From Curtobacterium sp. MCPF17_052 (lineage in GTDB: Bacteria > Actinomycetota > Actinomycetes > Actinomycetales > Microbacteriaceae): a stretch of 64,000 bases of DNA. Positions 12,363-44,162 of the stretch are shown one piece after another. The stretch lies in the NCBI RefSeq assembly GCF_003234085.1, contig NZ_QKSD01000009.1:124001-188000 (forward strand), read 5' to 3'. Under the pieces are notes generated by a model. That model was not told the DNA's origin. It worked only from the letters and a program-made list of their open reading frames with translations, and made no database searches. A program made the position numbers and the translations under genes. Every line of letters begins with the position of its first letter. Positions within the stretch are counted from its first letter, which is position 1.

Positions 12363-13775
12363 ATGTCGTCCGCGCCGTCACTCGCCCGTCAGCTCCTCCG
12401 GCGGAAGCCCGTGGACCAGCTCCGCGCAGAGGCGGCAGAGGGGGTCGACGGACAGCCACTCCGCCGGACCCTGGGGGTGTGGCACCTGACCATGATCAGC
12501 GTCGGTGCGACCCTCGGCACCGGCATCCTGGTCGTCCTCGGCACCGCCGTGCCACTCGCCGGGCCCGCCGTGTGGATCTCCTTCGTCCTCGCCGGCGTCG
12601 CTGCGCTGCTCTCGGCACTGTCCTACGCGGAGATGGCCGGTGCTGTCCCCACCTCCGGGTCGAGCTACTCCTACACGTACGCGACGATGGGCGAGGGCAT
12701 CGCCTGGGTCTGCGGGTGGTGCCTGGTCCTCGAGTACGCGGTGTCCGTCGCCGCCGTCGCCGTCGGTGCCAGCGAGTACGTCGACGAGACCCTGCGCGTC
12801 TTCGGACTGCACCTGCCGACCGCGCTGTCCGCGCCTCCGGGTGACGGTGGGGTGGTCAACCTGCCGGCGGCCGCGCTCGTCCTCGTCGCGATGCTGATCC
12901 TGCTGCCCGGGGCGAAGGAGAGCGCCTGGGTGAACACGCTCATGGTGCTCGTGAAGATCGCGTTGCTGGTGTTCTTCGTCATCGTGGCGTTCTCGGCGTT
13001 CCGGGTCGGGAACTTCGAACCGCTCGCCCCGATGGGCGCGGCGGGCGTGAGCGCGGCGGCCTCTCGGCTGTTCTTCTCGTACATCGGGTTCGACGCCGCC
13101 TCGACCGCCGGCGAAGAGGCGAAGGACCCCCGCCGCGACCTGCCGCGCGCCATCATCGGGTCGATCGCGCTCATCACCGCGCTGTACATCCTGGTGGCCG
13201 TCGCGGCGATCGGCGCGCGGTCGTGGACGTCGTTCTCGGCCGACGAGGCCTCGCTCGTCCGCATCGTCGTCGACGTCACCGGGCTGCCTGTCGTCGCGCT
13301 CGTGTTCTCGGTCGGTGCCGTCATCGCGATCGCCAGTGTCGTCCTCACCGTGCTCTACGGCCAGACCCGCATCCTGCTCACGATGGCGCGTGACGGTCTC
13401 GTGCCGAAGGTGTTCGGCCGGGTGTCCCCGCGCACCGGGACCCCGATCGCGAACACGCTCATCGTCGGCATCGTGGTCACGATCGTGTCGGCACTCGTCC
13501 CCCTCGGGGAGCTCGCCGACGCGACGAGCATCGGCACCCTCATCGCGTTCGCCCTCGTGAACGTCTCGGTGATCGTGCTCCGCCGGACCCAGCCGGATCT
13601 GGAACGGTCGTACCGCGTGCCGTTCTTCCCCGTGGTGCCGGTGCTCGGCGTCCTGTTCTGCCTGTTCCTGGCGGTGACGCTCGGCGCGGGGACGTGGATC
13701 GCGTTCGGCATCTGGATGGTCGCCGGCGCCGTGCTCTACGTGGCCTACGGCCGCCGCCACAGCACGCTCGCGTAG
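12363..13775 (+). CDS. APC-superfamily amino acid permease
   Basis: 470 residues with about 12 membrane helices. The N-terminal region (residues 36-75, ending GATLGTGILVVLG) carries the glycine-rich unwound TM1 motif that binds the substrate backbone in the APC fold. Then follows SYAEMAGAVPTSGSSYSY, characteristic of the cationic amino acid transporter (CAT/YfnA) branch. The substrate is likely an amino acid; specificity is not determinable. ATG start with GTGAGG upstream. A perfect palindrome sits in its promoter region. Confidence 0.9.
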   Translation: MSSAPSLARQLLRRKPVDQLRAEAAEGVDGQPLRRTLGVWHLTMISVGATLGTGILVVLGTAVPLAGPAVWISFVLAGVAALLSALSYAEMAGAVPTSGSSYSYTYATMGEGIAWVCGWCLVLEYAVSVAAVAVGASEYVDETLRVFGLHLPTALSAPPGDGGVVNLPAAALVLVAMLILLPGAKESAWVNTLMVLVKIALLVFFVIVAFSAFRVGNFEPLAPMGAAGVSAAASRLFFSYIGFDAASTAGEEAKDPRRDLPRAIIGSIALITALYILVAVAAIGARSWTSFSADEASLVRIVVDVTGLPVVALVFSVGAVIAIASVVLTVLYGQTRILLTMARDGLVPKVFGRVSPRTGTPIANTLIVGIVVTIVSALVPLGELADATSIGTLIAFALVNVSVIVLRRTQPDLERSYRVPFFPVVPVLGVLFCLFLAVTLGAGTWIAFGIWMVAGAVLYVAYGRRHSTLA

Positions 13776-13807
13776 GCCGGCCCTGGCCCGCGGCCGCCCT
13801 GGCCCGA

Positions 13808-13869
13808 GTTTCGCGCCCAGCGACACCACTCGCGCTCAGGAGCCCGAACGGTGTCGCTGGGCGCGAAAC
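13808..13869. repeat. Palindromic element A, 20-bp perfect arms
   Basis: GTTTCGCGCCCAGCGACACC at 13808-13827 is an exact inverted copy of 13850-13869, with a 22-nt spacer. The arm shares TTTCGCGC, then C or T, then CAGCGACAC with palindrome B on the other side of the next gene. It may also terminate the permease transcript. Confidence 0.9.
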
Positions 13870-13921
13870 GTACTCGTCCTCCACAGTGGCGCCACCACGG
13901 GCCGCCGTCCACAGCGCGAGC

Positions 13922-14886
13922 ATGGCGAGACCGACGGAGCGATCCGGAGCCACACGATGGGACATGGAGCACCACCGGAAGCGACCGCACCTCCTCCGAA
14001 CCGACATGGCCGATCGCAGTGCCGCGAGAGCAACGCAGCGAGCGCACCGGTCTGGCGACCTCGTCCTGATCCGGCAGGGCGTGTACATGCCCCGCGGAGA
14101 GTGGGAGGCGCTCGAGGAGACCGGACGGCACCTCGCCCGGGCTCGTGCGGTGGCTCCCGAGCTGGAGGAGGGAACGGGTTTCTCGCACGTCACGGCTGCT
14201 CTCGCTCTTGGCTGGCCGTTGATCGGGCCAGCGCCAGAACGCGTGCACGTCATCGATGACCGCCGCACCACGACCGTGCACCGAGCCGGCCTGGTGCGGC
14301 ACGCGGGTCCGCTCCCCGCAGTGGACCCCGTGCGACTCGACGGCGTGCCGGTGACGGCTCCGGTCCCCACGGCTGTCGCGCTCATCGTCAGTGCGCCGGT
14401 GCACGTCGCAGCAGTCGCCGTCGACGCCGCGGTCCGAGCACGGGTCATCGAGCCATCCCGTCTCGCCGAGGAGCTCCCCCTCGGTCCGGCCCGCGGCTCA
14501 GCCCGTGCTCAGCTCGTCCTGTCCGCGCTCGACGAGCGACACGAGTCACCCGGGGAGTCGTTCACGGCGATCCGTCTGGTCGAGATCGGAGCGCCGGAGA
14601 CGATCCCGCAGCACGAGTTCGTCCTGCCTGACGGGCGACGTGATCGCGTCGACTTCTGGCTCCCGAGCCGGGGAGTCGTGGTCGAGTTCGACGGGAAGCA
14701 GAAGTACCGCGATCCGACGATGATCGGCACGTCGGACCCGGCGGAGGTGCTCTGGCGCGAGAAAGTCCGGGAAGACCGGATCCGGTCTCGGCCGGAGGTT
14801 CGAGCGGTCATCGCGTGACCTGGTGGCATCTCGTCGAGCCAGACCGCCTGCGAGCACTCTTCCGGGCGCACGGTGTCCGGCTGTGA
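13922..14886 (+). pseudogene. AbiEi-antitoxin-like/DUF559 endonuclease-like gene, frameshifted at the 3' end
   Basis: The intact frame runs to a TGA at 14818. It resembles solitary actinobacterial proteins that fuse an AbiEi-type N-terminal region (GVYMPRG motif) to a C-terminal DUF559, Vsr-like PD-(D/E)xK nuclease domain (RVDFWLPSRGVVVEFDGKQK, then LWREKVREDR). The family normally ends with a strand containing RVTW. That ending is present in another frame: from 14812 the codons read RVTWWHLVEPDRLRALFRAH and so on to a TGA at 14884-14886. Loss of one C near 14811 explains this. No AbiEii-like toxin partner is adjacent. The start is uncertain: ATG 13922 or 13964, neither with a strong ribosome binding site. 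Related palindromes flank the gene. Confidence 0.75.
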
Positions 14887-14897
14887 GCGGTTGGACG

Positions 14898-14957
14898 TTT
14901 CGCGCTCAGCGACACGGTTCGCGGGTCCGGCCGCGAACCGTGTCGCTGAGCGCGAAA
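14898..14957. repeat. Palindromic element B, 27-bp perfect arms
   Basis: Positions 14898-14924 and 14931-14957 are exact inverted copies around a 6-nt loop (GTCCGG). The outer part of each arm (TTTCGCGCTCAGCGACAC) differs by one base from palindrome A. It begins 12 bp after the frameshifted stop of the gene it flanks. Confidence 0.92.
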
Positions 14958-22323: not shown

Positions 22324-22376
22324 GTGTCCATCCTGTCGTGCGTCGTCGGTCGAGCGGCGGCTGGGGCCGCATGACG

Positions 22377-34973: not shown

Positions 34974-34996
34974 CCTCGGCGCGATCACACCCCGCA

Positions 34997-35064
34997 CACC
35001 GCGCCCCGCTCCGCGCATCGCTCCCCGTCGAGACGGGGCGCGATGCACGGAGCGGGGCGCGGTG
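34997..35064. terminator. Long imperfect palindrome between aspC and murB
   Basis: 33-nt arms (34997-35029 and 35032-35064) match with two mismatches, built on CACCGCGCCCCGCTCCG. It is probably a two-way terminator for the convergent genes, although the stem is unusually long. Related GGCGCGATCAC fragments recur on both sides. Confidence 0.7.
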
Positions 35065-35159
35065 TCGTCCACGGAACGAGACCACCGAGCGTGGTGCGCG
35101 GTCGTCGGGTACGACGGGGCGCGATCACCGGACGCGGTGCGACCTCGGCGCGCCGGACG

Positions 35160-37580: not shown

Positions 37581-37643
37581 GGCGAGCCGCGCCTCGAGCC
37601 GCGCCGAGCCGTACGGAGCCGCTCGGCGCTGTGCGCAGACGCG

Positions 37644-37688
37644 AAAGCGACAGATGTGCGCGGTCGTCCGGGGCAGATCTGTCGGTTT
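37644..37688. repeat. Inverted repeat element C
   Basis: AAAGCGACAGATGTGC (37644-37659) pairs with 37673-37688 at 14 of 16 positions. The core GCGACAGATGTGCG recurs at 37780-37793 in element D. Confidence 0.75.
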
Positions 37689-37770
37689 GGCGCCCCGATC
37701 CCACCCGACCGTGGCCGGGCTCCCCGCCGATGGCCGGTGGCGGCGCCGCCCAGACGCGCACGCGGACGCG

Positions 37771-37830
37771 GGCGCAAGAGCGACAGATGTGCGGGGCCGG
37801 ACGGCGCGTACCTGTCGGTTTCGCGTCCCG
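37771..37830. repeat. Inverted repeat element D, diverged copy of C
   Basis: GAGCGACAGATGTGCGGGG on one side and a CTGTCGGTTTCGCG arm on the other form a degenerate stem. The arrangement and arm sequences match element C, about 130 bp away. Confidence 0.65.
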
Positions 37831-42964: not shown

Positions 42965-44143
42965 TCAGGTGGTGGGCGCGGGCACCGCCGCGGCGATCCT
43001 CGCGGTCAGTCGTTCGAGCGGCCCGCGTCCGAGGAACCGTCGCCACACCATCGCGAACAGCACCGCGCCGACCACGAACCCCCACCAGGTGGAGGGTCCC
43101 TGCGGCATGTCGGGCCACAGGGCGATGACGACCAGGTGCAGCGCGTAGACGGTCAGCGGCATCGACCCCACCGCCGCCAGGGGGAACGCGATCCGGGTGA
43201 CGAGCGGCCCGTGTCCGTCGACGAGCAGCCGGCACAGGGCGATCACGGCGACGGCGACGGCAGCGGTGCCGGCCACGTCCACGATCGACGACGAATGGTC
43301 ACGCGGTGAGAGGAACACCTGCGCGAACGTCTGACCGGCGTCGGAGCCGGACGGCACGAACGGCACGCCGGGGAAGGCGTACGTCGTGTCGAACGGGATC
43401 GGCGCAGCGGCGTTCCCGACGACGTACGCAGCGGCCGCGACCACGATGCCGGACACGAGGAGCAGGACCTGCCGCATCGAGCCTCCCCCCACCAGCACAA
43501 CCCAGGCGCCGCCGGCGTGTCGCCCGGGAGCCGGCGGTGTGGACCCGGGTCGGGACCGCGCGACGGCGAGCCCGACCAGCACGTACGCGGCGAAGGTGAC
43601 GACGGGGTAGACCAGCCCGAGCTGGACGCCGAACATGCCCGCCTCGGCGTAGAGCGGCAGGATCGCCAGCGCGACCGGTGCCGCTGCGACCGCGCAGGCC
43701 ACGGCGAGCAGGAACAGTGCCCACGGCCGCCAGCGGAGCACGGGCAGGGCCAACAGGAACAGGGCGCCGTAGGTGGGCAGCACCACGTAGACCGGCGTCT
43801 GCAGGGCCATCAGCAGCAGCCCGACGACGACCACCACGACCGCGCGGAGTGCCAGGCGGGCCCGGACCCGACCGATGTCGGGCGGCCCGGGCGGTCGGTC
43901 CCGGCCGCTGACGAGTCCGATCGACACCCCGGCGAGCACCGCGAAGAGCGCGGCGGACCGGCCGTTCACGACGGCGCCGAAGCTCGTCGGGTCCGCCCAG
44001 TCGACGTTCTCGGCGACGTCACCGACGTGCGCGGCCATCATCCCGAAGAGGGCGAGGGACCGGGCCACGTCGACCCCGACGAGCCGGCCGGACGACGCAA
44101 CGCCCGGCACCCCACGTCGGGGTACCGGGCGCAGCGTCGTCAT
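42965..44143 (-). CDS. Multispanning membrane protein, HGSNAT/DUF1624-DUF418-like
   Basis: 392 residues with about ten membrane helices. The N-terminal motif GRLVGVDVARSLALFGMMAA followed by a His (AHVGD) is typical of the heparan-alpha-glucosaminide N-acetyltransferase-like/YeiB superfamily, whose members transfer acyl groups across membranes. The C-terminal MPLTVYALHLVVIALW fits as well. Substrate unknown. It is just upstream of fprA on the same strand, with only 19 bp between the fprA stop and its start. Confidence 0.8.
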   Translation of the reverse strand: MTTLRPVPRRGVPGVASSGRLVGVDVARSLALFGMMAAHVGDVAENVDWADPTSFGAVVNGRSAALFAVLAGVSIGLVSGRDRPPGPPDIGRVRARLALRAVVVVVVGLLLMALQTPVYVVLPTYGALFLLALPVLRWRPWALFLLAVACAVAAAPVALAILPLYAEAGMFGVQLGLVYPVVTFAAYVLVGLAVARSRPGSTPPAPGRHAGGAWVVLVGGGSMRQVLLLVSGIVVAAAAYVVGNAAAPIPFDTTYAFPGVPFVPSGSDAGQTFAQVFLSPRDHSSSIVDVAGTAAVAVAVIALCRLLVDGHGPLVTRIAFPLAAVGSMPLTVYALHLVVIALWPDMPQGPSTWWGFVVGAVLFAMVWRRFLGRGPLERLTARIAAAVPAPTT

Positions 44144-44162
44144 GCTCGGACCTGCGAGGCGC

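Follow-up and report, generated by a model that had tools for sequence, protein, structure and literature searches.

Related palindromes bracket an AbiEi-like nuclease gene in Curtobacterium, with private, dispersed counterparts across Actinomycetota

Introduction

The closest described counterparts of the locus reported here are the repetitive extragenic palindromic (REP) elements with their REP-associated tyrosine transposases (RAYTs), and the AbiE type IV toxin-antitoxin systems. According to the excerpts consulted of two papers (PMC3116915, PMC3733652), RAYTs are single-copy, mostly vertically inherited enzymes whose genes are flanked by palindromes with relatives dispersed outside genes, and they are repeat-specific where several repeat families share a genome. 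The excerpt of PMC3733652 adds that REP elements prefer unidirectional and convergent gene pairs, and it describes TIRtrons, in which RAYT-like genes lie between long terminal inverted repeats that can form repeated families. For AbiEi and Rv2827c, the excerpt of PMC7319586 reports that inverted repeats of about 23 bp precede the gene, AbiEi-type operators being pairs of 23-bp inverted repeats that lie 3 or 13 bp apart. Here we describe a locus within a 64,000-nucleotide stretch of Curtobacterium sp. MCPF17_052 (contig NZ_QKSD01000009.1, positions 124,001 to 188,000), called the window throughout, in which two related palindromes, A and B, bracket a gene whose product resembles a fusion of an AbiEi-like DNA-binding region with a Vsr/I-Bth0305I-like PD-(D/E)XK nuclease. 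There is good support for an association of such nuclease genes with private, dispersed palindromes of recurrent geometry, and the association recurs across Actinomycetota. In the excerpts of the open-access literature available to us, nothing connected AbiEi-like nucleases to dispersed palindromes.

Results

The locus consists of four features:

13809..13868, no strand: palindrome A, the upstream bracket; 60 bp, with a TTCGCG-like motif at outer and inner arm positions; same family as B and the dispersed copies
13964..14818, forward strand: AbiEi-like/Vsr-like nuclease gene (predicted from orthologue alignment, structure model and fold), main open frame, with a frameshift near the 3' end
14815..14886, forward strand: conserved C-terminal segment of the nuclease gene in another frame, resembling orthologue C-termini
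14898..14957, no strand: palindrome B, the downstream bracket; 60 bp with 27 perfect arm pairs

Both palindromes are exactly 60 bp long, with 26 of 30 pairs matching in A and 27 of 30 in B, and they are identical to each other at 46 of 60 positions (A occupies 13808-13869 when one further pair is counted). From the outer end of A to that of B the locus measures 1149 bp. A first-pass annotation of the window had described related palindromes on both sides of a frameshifted gene, with an 18-base arm core differing at one position, and both descriptions hold. Spans of 60 bp with at least 21 of 24 outer pairs occur three times in the window (A, B and one at 35001) and not once in 20 triplet-shuffled windows. 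Seven Rfam matches were obtained at E<=1, every one under its gathering score, and we regard them as chance.

The open frame of the nuclease gene extends from 13694 to 14818, with the ATG at 13964 as the likely start, based on similarity to orthologues; starts further upstream, such as 13922, are possible. The final two dozen residues are encoded in the different frame, which ends in a stop at 14884-14886, 11 bp before palindrome B. Orthologues are uninterrupted through the frameshift point at all 29 loci compared (L093-L121). The source assembly is a 3.54-Mb draft of 31 contigs with an estimated completeness of 76.6%, and a sequencing error may therefore lie behind the frameshift. The loci closest to the window protein share 50-58% identity with it, and the named ones among them (8 of 18 loci) are Curtobacterium. 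An orthologue structure model with a predicted local distance difference test (pLDDT) score of 93 places an AbiEi-like fold at residues 17-201 and also contains a predicted Vsr-type PD-(D/E)XK fold, whose nuclease residues are conserved in the orthologue alignment.

The family labels first given to the gene, AbiEi and DUF559, fared differently. PADLOC AbiEi-type models match homologues and agree with the orthologue model on the AbiEi label, but Pfam does not support it, the window protein having no Pfam family at E<=1. The DUF559 label is not supported: its Pfam model matched neither the window protein nor nine other homologues at E<=1. No Pfam or NCBIfam family rose above its cut-off, AbiEi_4 appearing once at E 0.09, and a single query of plasmid and phage records returned no homologue at E<=1e-5. 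A first search of the window's own genome revealed three other homologues, at C31:42514-43350, C1:3858-4562 and on C15. The last of these (G000:C15:3842-4441) is more distant, with a divergent nuclease motif and no bracket, and another more distant homologue lies at G000:C7:402-989.

Relatives of the protein are present in 66 of 66 genus genomes. Among 29 orthologue loci, palindromes within the mismatch limit used were found on both sides at 19, on one side at one and on neither side at nine. The two brackets of a locus tend to carry the same variant ends, and from species to species the outer half-sites tend to change together with the inner ones, TTTCGCGC occurring with TTCGCG and TCACGCGC with TCACG; further pairings are ACTCGG or TCTCGC with TCTCGC (this scripted comparison used only rows of the 60-bp type, the 53-55-bp type being poorly placed). 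The homologues on C31 and C1 are bracketed by pairs of two further, unrelated sequences of about 62 and about 72 bp, and the palindrome of about 62 bp has three copies elsewhere in the genome, detected as exact two-arm pattern matches.

Bracketing was scored as the best stretch shared, in either orientation, by 400 bp of upstream and 400 bp of downstream flank of a gene, with flanks moved outward by about 0.9-1.1 kb as the control. A score of at least 20 was reached at 50 of 85 genus loci (0 of 58 shifted pairs), 27 of 39 family loci (0 of 39) and 20 of 29 loci of a phylum sample (0 of 28); in this sample, 15 of 22 non-family loci and 5 of 7 family loci reached it. Short flanks excluded 7 of 92 genus and 1 of 40 family loci, the homologue on C15 was omitted by hand, and at most five candidates per genome were scored in the family and phylum searches. 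Profile matches to the protein were obtained in 321 of 398 genomes and 72 of 85 genera of the family, and in 174 of 396 genomes and 117 of 246 genera of the phylum. Most of the printed shared stretches are visibly palindromic. When palindromes were sought directly, a strict detector (at least 20 of 24 pairs) reported both sides at 7 of 60 loci and one side at 3, and was judged too strict. Around the same 60 genes, a looser one (at least 15 of 18 pairs) found 42 palindromes within 250 bp upstream and 20 within 250 bp downstream. Of the remaining upstream bins, those starting at -1750 and -1500 contained 22 and 7 and the rest 0-2; the remaining downstream bins contained 0-10, and 12 palindromes lay inside genes.

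The palindromes are not confined to the bracketed gene. Allowing up to 3 mismatches, a search of the window's own genome gave 46 matches to the arm core and 3 to its reversed control. In the alignment of two-armed copies from other contigs the length is 60 bp, except for one weak 55-bp match, and some copies stand in arrays. Across the 66 genus genomes, the two-armed 60-bp pattern was found in 30 and a related 53-bp type in 47, with up to 46 copies of the latter per genome (controls 0). The 53-bp type has 21 matches in the window's own genome (reversed control 0), and the window contains a solo pair:

37640..37692, no strand: solo palindrome of the 53-55-bp type with CGCGAAAGCGACAG arm, copy 1 of the pair, 2 mismatches to the pattern
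37773..37825, no strand: copy 2 of the pair, likewise a solo palindrome of the 53-bp type; six of the seven relatives compared lack the pair in their orthologous spacer

The median number of copies of the 53-bp type was 21.5 in the 20 genomes hand-assigned to that type and 1.0 in the 46 others (p 9e-8, uncorrected for relatedness); the corresponding difference for the 60-bp type was weak (p 0.02). Contigs C4, C10 and C14 of the own genome terminate in or near copies, so short-read assemblies may break at these elements and drafts may under-count them. Arrays of palindromes with a 184-bp step were observed in two species, at G012:C1:893938-894363 (L377) and G000:C4:131560-131927 (L048); these remind us of arrays of bacterial interspersed mosaic elements (BIMEs).

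Of 11 dispersed sites checked in the own genome, one overlaps a predicted open reading frame (ORF) and the other 10 fall outside all gene predictions; of six copies with both neighbours called, two are between convergent and four between tandem genes. For 17 copies in genome G124 and 3 in G293, examined with 2.5 kb on each side and genes called by an ad hoc codon-position rule, ten are located between convergent, six between tandem and one between divergent genes, with three inside predicted ORFs.

The bracket palindromes tested are private to their genes. Fifteen bracket palindromes, 13 from loci of other genomes and two from the own genome, were hand-chosen from clearly bracketed loci out of 32 collected from 30 genomes, and were joined as one query against their 14 source genomes. 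All 14 matched, with 7 to 81 matches per genome counting both strands. Among the matches listed, the genome's own palindrome was hit in 149 of 150, the remaining row being a long alignment that includes the own palindrome; 32 of these matches lie at bracketed genes, and the other 118 occupy 108 separate dispersed places, which belong to 10 of the 14 genomes.

The palindromes also share an internal geometry. Within-arm direct repeats were sought at shifts of 9-26 in 36 palindromes (the 32 collected plus four typical Curtobacterium types), and with shuffled arms as the control 27 arms reached p<=0.05, 25 of them at a shift of 19 and two at 18; the 19-bp geometry thus occurs in many families. In G068, the layout is motif-spacer-motif-centre-motif'-spacer-motif', and the 12-bp motif is nearly invariant except at C/T positions. 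Copies of a palindrome keep a fixed length around a variable centre, and 20 copies of G068 and 17 of G197 have sharp borders, with no shared sequence in the outer flanks. Among 36 hand-picked copies of the 53-bp type, spacer co-variation is strong at pairs 15-18 and 23. With arms of about 24 bp around a 12-bp centre, the palindromes would fit one protein molecule per arm, by analogy with the AbiEi-type operators.

The neighbours of the nuclease gene are genes that we take, by resemblance, to be an amino-acid permease gene and rplL. At loci L093-L121 the gene lies between the two in 27 of 29 cases; the other two are close to contig ends, and there the permease gene alone was detected. Throughout the genus, 57 of 89 loci adjoin the permease gene, 51 of those with rplL found opposite. 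Orientation in this slot varies: at 31 of the 57 loci the gene points away from the permease gene, as in the window, and at 26 it is reversed, the latter including most loci with the 53-55-bp palindrome type. The two orientations may have arisen either by inversion of the unit between its palindromes or by replacement. No AbiEii-type partner gene was seen next to the nuclease gene in the slot, although no search with an AbiEii model was made.

Other palindromes of the window are recorded here as separate observations. A near-perfect palindrome of about 70 bp at 34992-35069, with no nuclease homologue found alongside, may be a solo copy of another family. A second dispersed, terminator-like type with GACGGGAGGC arms occurs at 22373, 24299 and 56238, and also at L061, L122 and L123, with no tie to the nuclease gene family seen. 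Furthermore, a palindrome with GACGACGCAACGCC arms lies at 44087-44145.

Discussion

We consider it reasonably probable that the palindromes serve the nuclease beside them as multi-site targets and that this enzyme probably contributes to their spread. Each palindrome would then be a DNA target dedicated to the protein whose gene lies between the two, built as a symmetric four-site array (motif, 19 bp, motif, and the mirror image) that the AbiEi-like region would recognise and on which the Vsr/I-Bth0305I-like nuclease domain would act. The two gene-flanking copies would form a resident pair, and the solo copies would be non-autonomous elements that spread into intergenic DNA, mostly at gene 3' ends, probably with help from the nuclease. 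As the specificity of the protein drifts, resident and dispersed palindromes would follow, and lineages would therefore acquire private palindrome families. Protein binding, cutting and the role of the nuclease in spread are what we infer from this arrangement. More tentatively, Actinomycetota may harbour an undescribed, phylum-wide palindrome-spreading class, in which an AbiEi-like/Vsr-like fusion reads a four-site palindrome of 19-bp period and copies or moves it, its specificity diversifying so rapidly that lineages possess palindrome alphabets of their own; the REP/RAYT type would then have been invented a second time, independently, with a restriction-enzyme-type catalyst.

Several observations weigh against this explanation. 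By the cross-flank score, 35 of 85 genus, 12 of 39 family and 9 of 29 phylum loci are unbracketed; the score itself has no palindrome requirement, and at least one family match (L219) looks to us like tRNA sequence rather than a palindrome. One group of homologues (L149-L163 group, L167, L170, L172, L178 and L180) tends to carry inverted repeats on the upstream side alone, an arrangement similar to that reported for the Rv2827c promoter, and bracketing may have been gained or lost there. Sixteen of the 36 palindromes have no significant 19-bp repeat. Spacer complementarity is clear in one family and near absent in two others, and a hairpin is not claimed as general because co-variation is confined to one pair each in G068 and G197. 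Four of the 14 genomes in the private-palindrome test (G142, G063, G206 and G721) have bracket copies only, among the matches listed, and the window's own genome contains 21 solo copies of the 53-bp type although its bracketed gene has another palindrome type. The solo pair at 37640 and 37773, compared in seven relatives fetched out of 66 genomes matched, is missing from six and reduced to a degraded relic in the seventh; the whole spacer is altered, and the comparison therefore gave no precise empty site. Finally, no target-site duplication was detected in two families at k 2-9 and offsets 0-5 with shuffled flank pairs as control, 3 of 96 tests giving p 0.01-0.04 without consistent excess. 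Separately, homing into one shared target was considered and rejected for two families: the flanks of the 20 and 17 dispersed copies share only 1-5 bases adjoining the element, and in G197 these bases extend the palindrome.

These results also bear on what the first-pass annotation had proposed for the locus. Its idea that the whole palindrome-gene-palindrome unit is dispersed must be narrowed, as only the palindromes are, and mobility found no backing in a clean empty site (seven relatives) or a target-site duplication (two families). Palindromes do occur at the ends of unrelated genes, but these copies correspond to the gene bracketed in their own genome. Synteny likewise holds in part: the genus conserves the permease-rplL slot, but the palindromes have diverged along with the gene, which stands in either orientation, and the region is therefore not invariant. 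The analogy with REP/RAYT was borne out, with palindrome bracketing recurring across the phylum and bracket palindromes dispersed in their own genomes.

An unlikely alternative is that the AbiEi-like protein acts as a regulator or chromosome organiser: it would repress its own gene and occupy many palindromes of the genome, which would form a regulon or mark the nucleoid, while the nuclease activity would be secondary and nothing would be mobile. Autoregulation of AbiEi and Rv2827c through 23-bp inverted repeats, as given in the excerpt of PMC7319586, favours it, as do the homologues with mostly upstream-only palindromes and a repeated-motif geometry compatible with a protein-bound array. A regulon would, however, be expected at promoters, and the dispersed copies are mostly convergent or tandem, with 10 of 20 convergent and only 1 divergent, which speaks against it; so does the second palindrome copy downstream of the gene, and dozens of sharp-ended 60-70-bp elements would need parallel motif change at each shift in specificity. 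We regard it as quite improbable that the gene is a self-recognition or addiction module, in which host palindromes guide or restrain the nuclease in defence or selfish maintenance and copies are kept since their loss is costly. Conserved nuclease residues, PADLOC AbiEi-type matches on homologues and a private palindrome per lineage would all suit such a module, but its conserved slot neighbours are the permease gene and rplL, hence no adjacent partner gene, and the single phage and plasmid query was negative at E<=1e-5.

The look of the elements (palindromic, mostly extragenic, in arrays and at gene ends) might also suggest that these are REP elements, dispersed by an ordinary REP-associated tyrosine transposase, with the nuclease gene merely present among them. 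This is very improbable, since a search for Y1_Tnp (PF01797) gave no match in the own genome, an incomplete draft, and was positive in 5 of 14 control genomes, and since bracketing and cognate matching track the nuclease gene. To a similarly slight degree we credit ordinary terminators or RNA-processing hairpins that are alike by chance: location at gene 3' ends and spacer pair co-variation in the 53-bp family speak for them, whereas the fixed length with a variable centre, the 19-bp internal repeat, the match to the same genome's bracketed gene, the copy upstream of the gene and the outward-shifted flank pairs (0 of 125 reaching the score) speak against them.

Through this association, the scattered palindromes of many high-GC genomes gain a candidate owner, and a natural series of protein/DNA-target pairs with differing specificities and one geometry becomes available. 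If it is true that the nuclease spreads palindromes, REP/RAYT-like elements arose twice, from unrelated enzymes, and two origins would make the question of why bacteria keep such elements directly testable. If the protein only binds its palindromes, they would still constitute a lineage-specific DNA-marking system that follows its gene.

Compared with known systems, the locus resembles AbiE (AbiEi, Rv2827c) in the predicted AbiEi-like fold and in inverted repeats of AbiE-operator-like size upstream of the gene and its homologues; it differs in its additional Vsr-like nuclease domain, in the missing partner gene within the permease-rplL slot, and in having palindromes on both sides of the gene plus dispersed copies. 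With Vsr and the Vsr-like homing endonuclease I-Bth0305I it shares the modelled Vsr-type PD-(D/E)XK fold, but the dispersed elements have no long common target sequence at their flanks. Like a TIRtron, it comprises a gene between repeats able to form repeated families, whereas both ends of the present locus are complete palindromes and its enzyme is unrelated; classical transposons and miniature inverted-repeat transposable elements (MITEs) differ in the target-site duplication that the two families tested here lack. The strongest likeness is to REP elements, REP doublets forming hairpins (REPINs) and RAYTs, since here too the gene is flanked by palindromes whose copies are dispersed, mostly extragenic and more frequent between unidirectional or convergent gene pairs. 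In contrast, the enzyme is predicted to be AbiEi-like/PD-(D/E)XK rather than a Y1 (HUH) tyrosine transposase, the arms repeat a motif at 19 bp, and palindromes A and B carry no GTAG or CGTC tag. The best reading of this comparison is that REP/RAYT and the palindrome-nuclease system are convergent, with unrelated enzymes.
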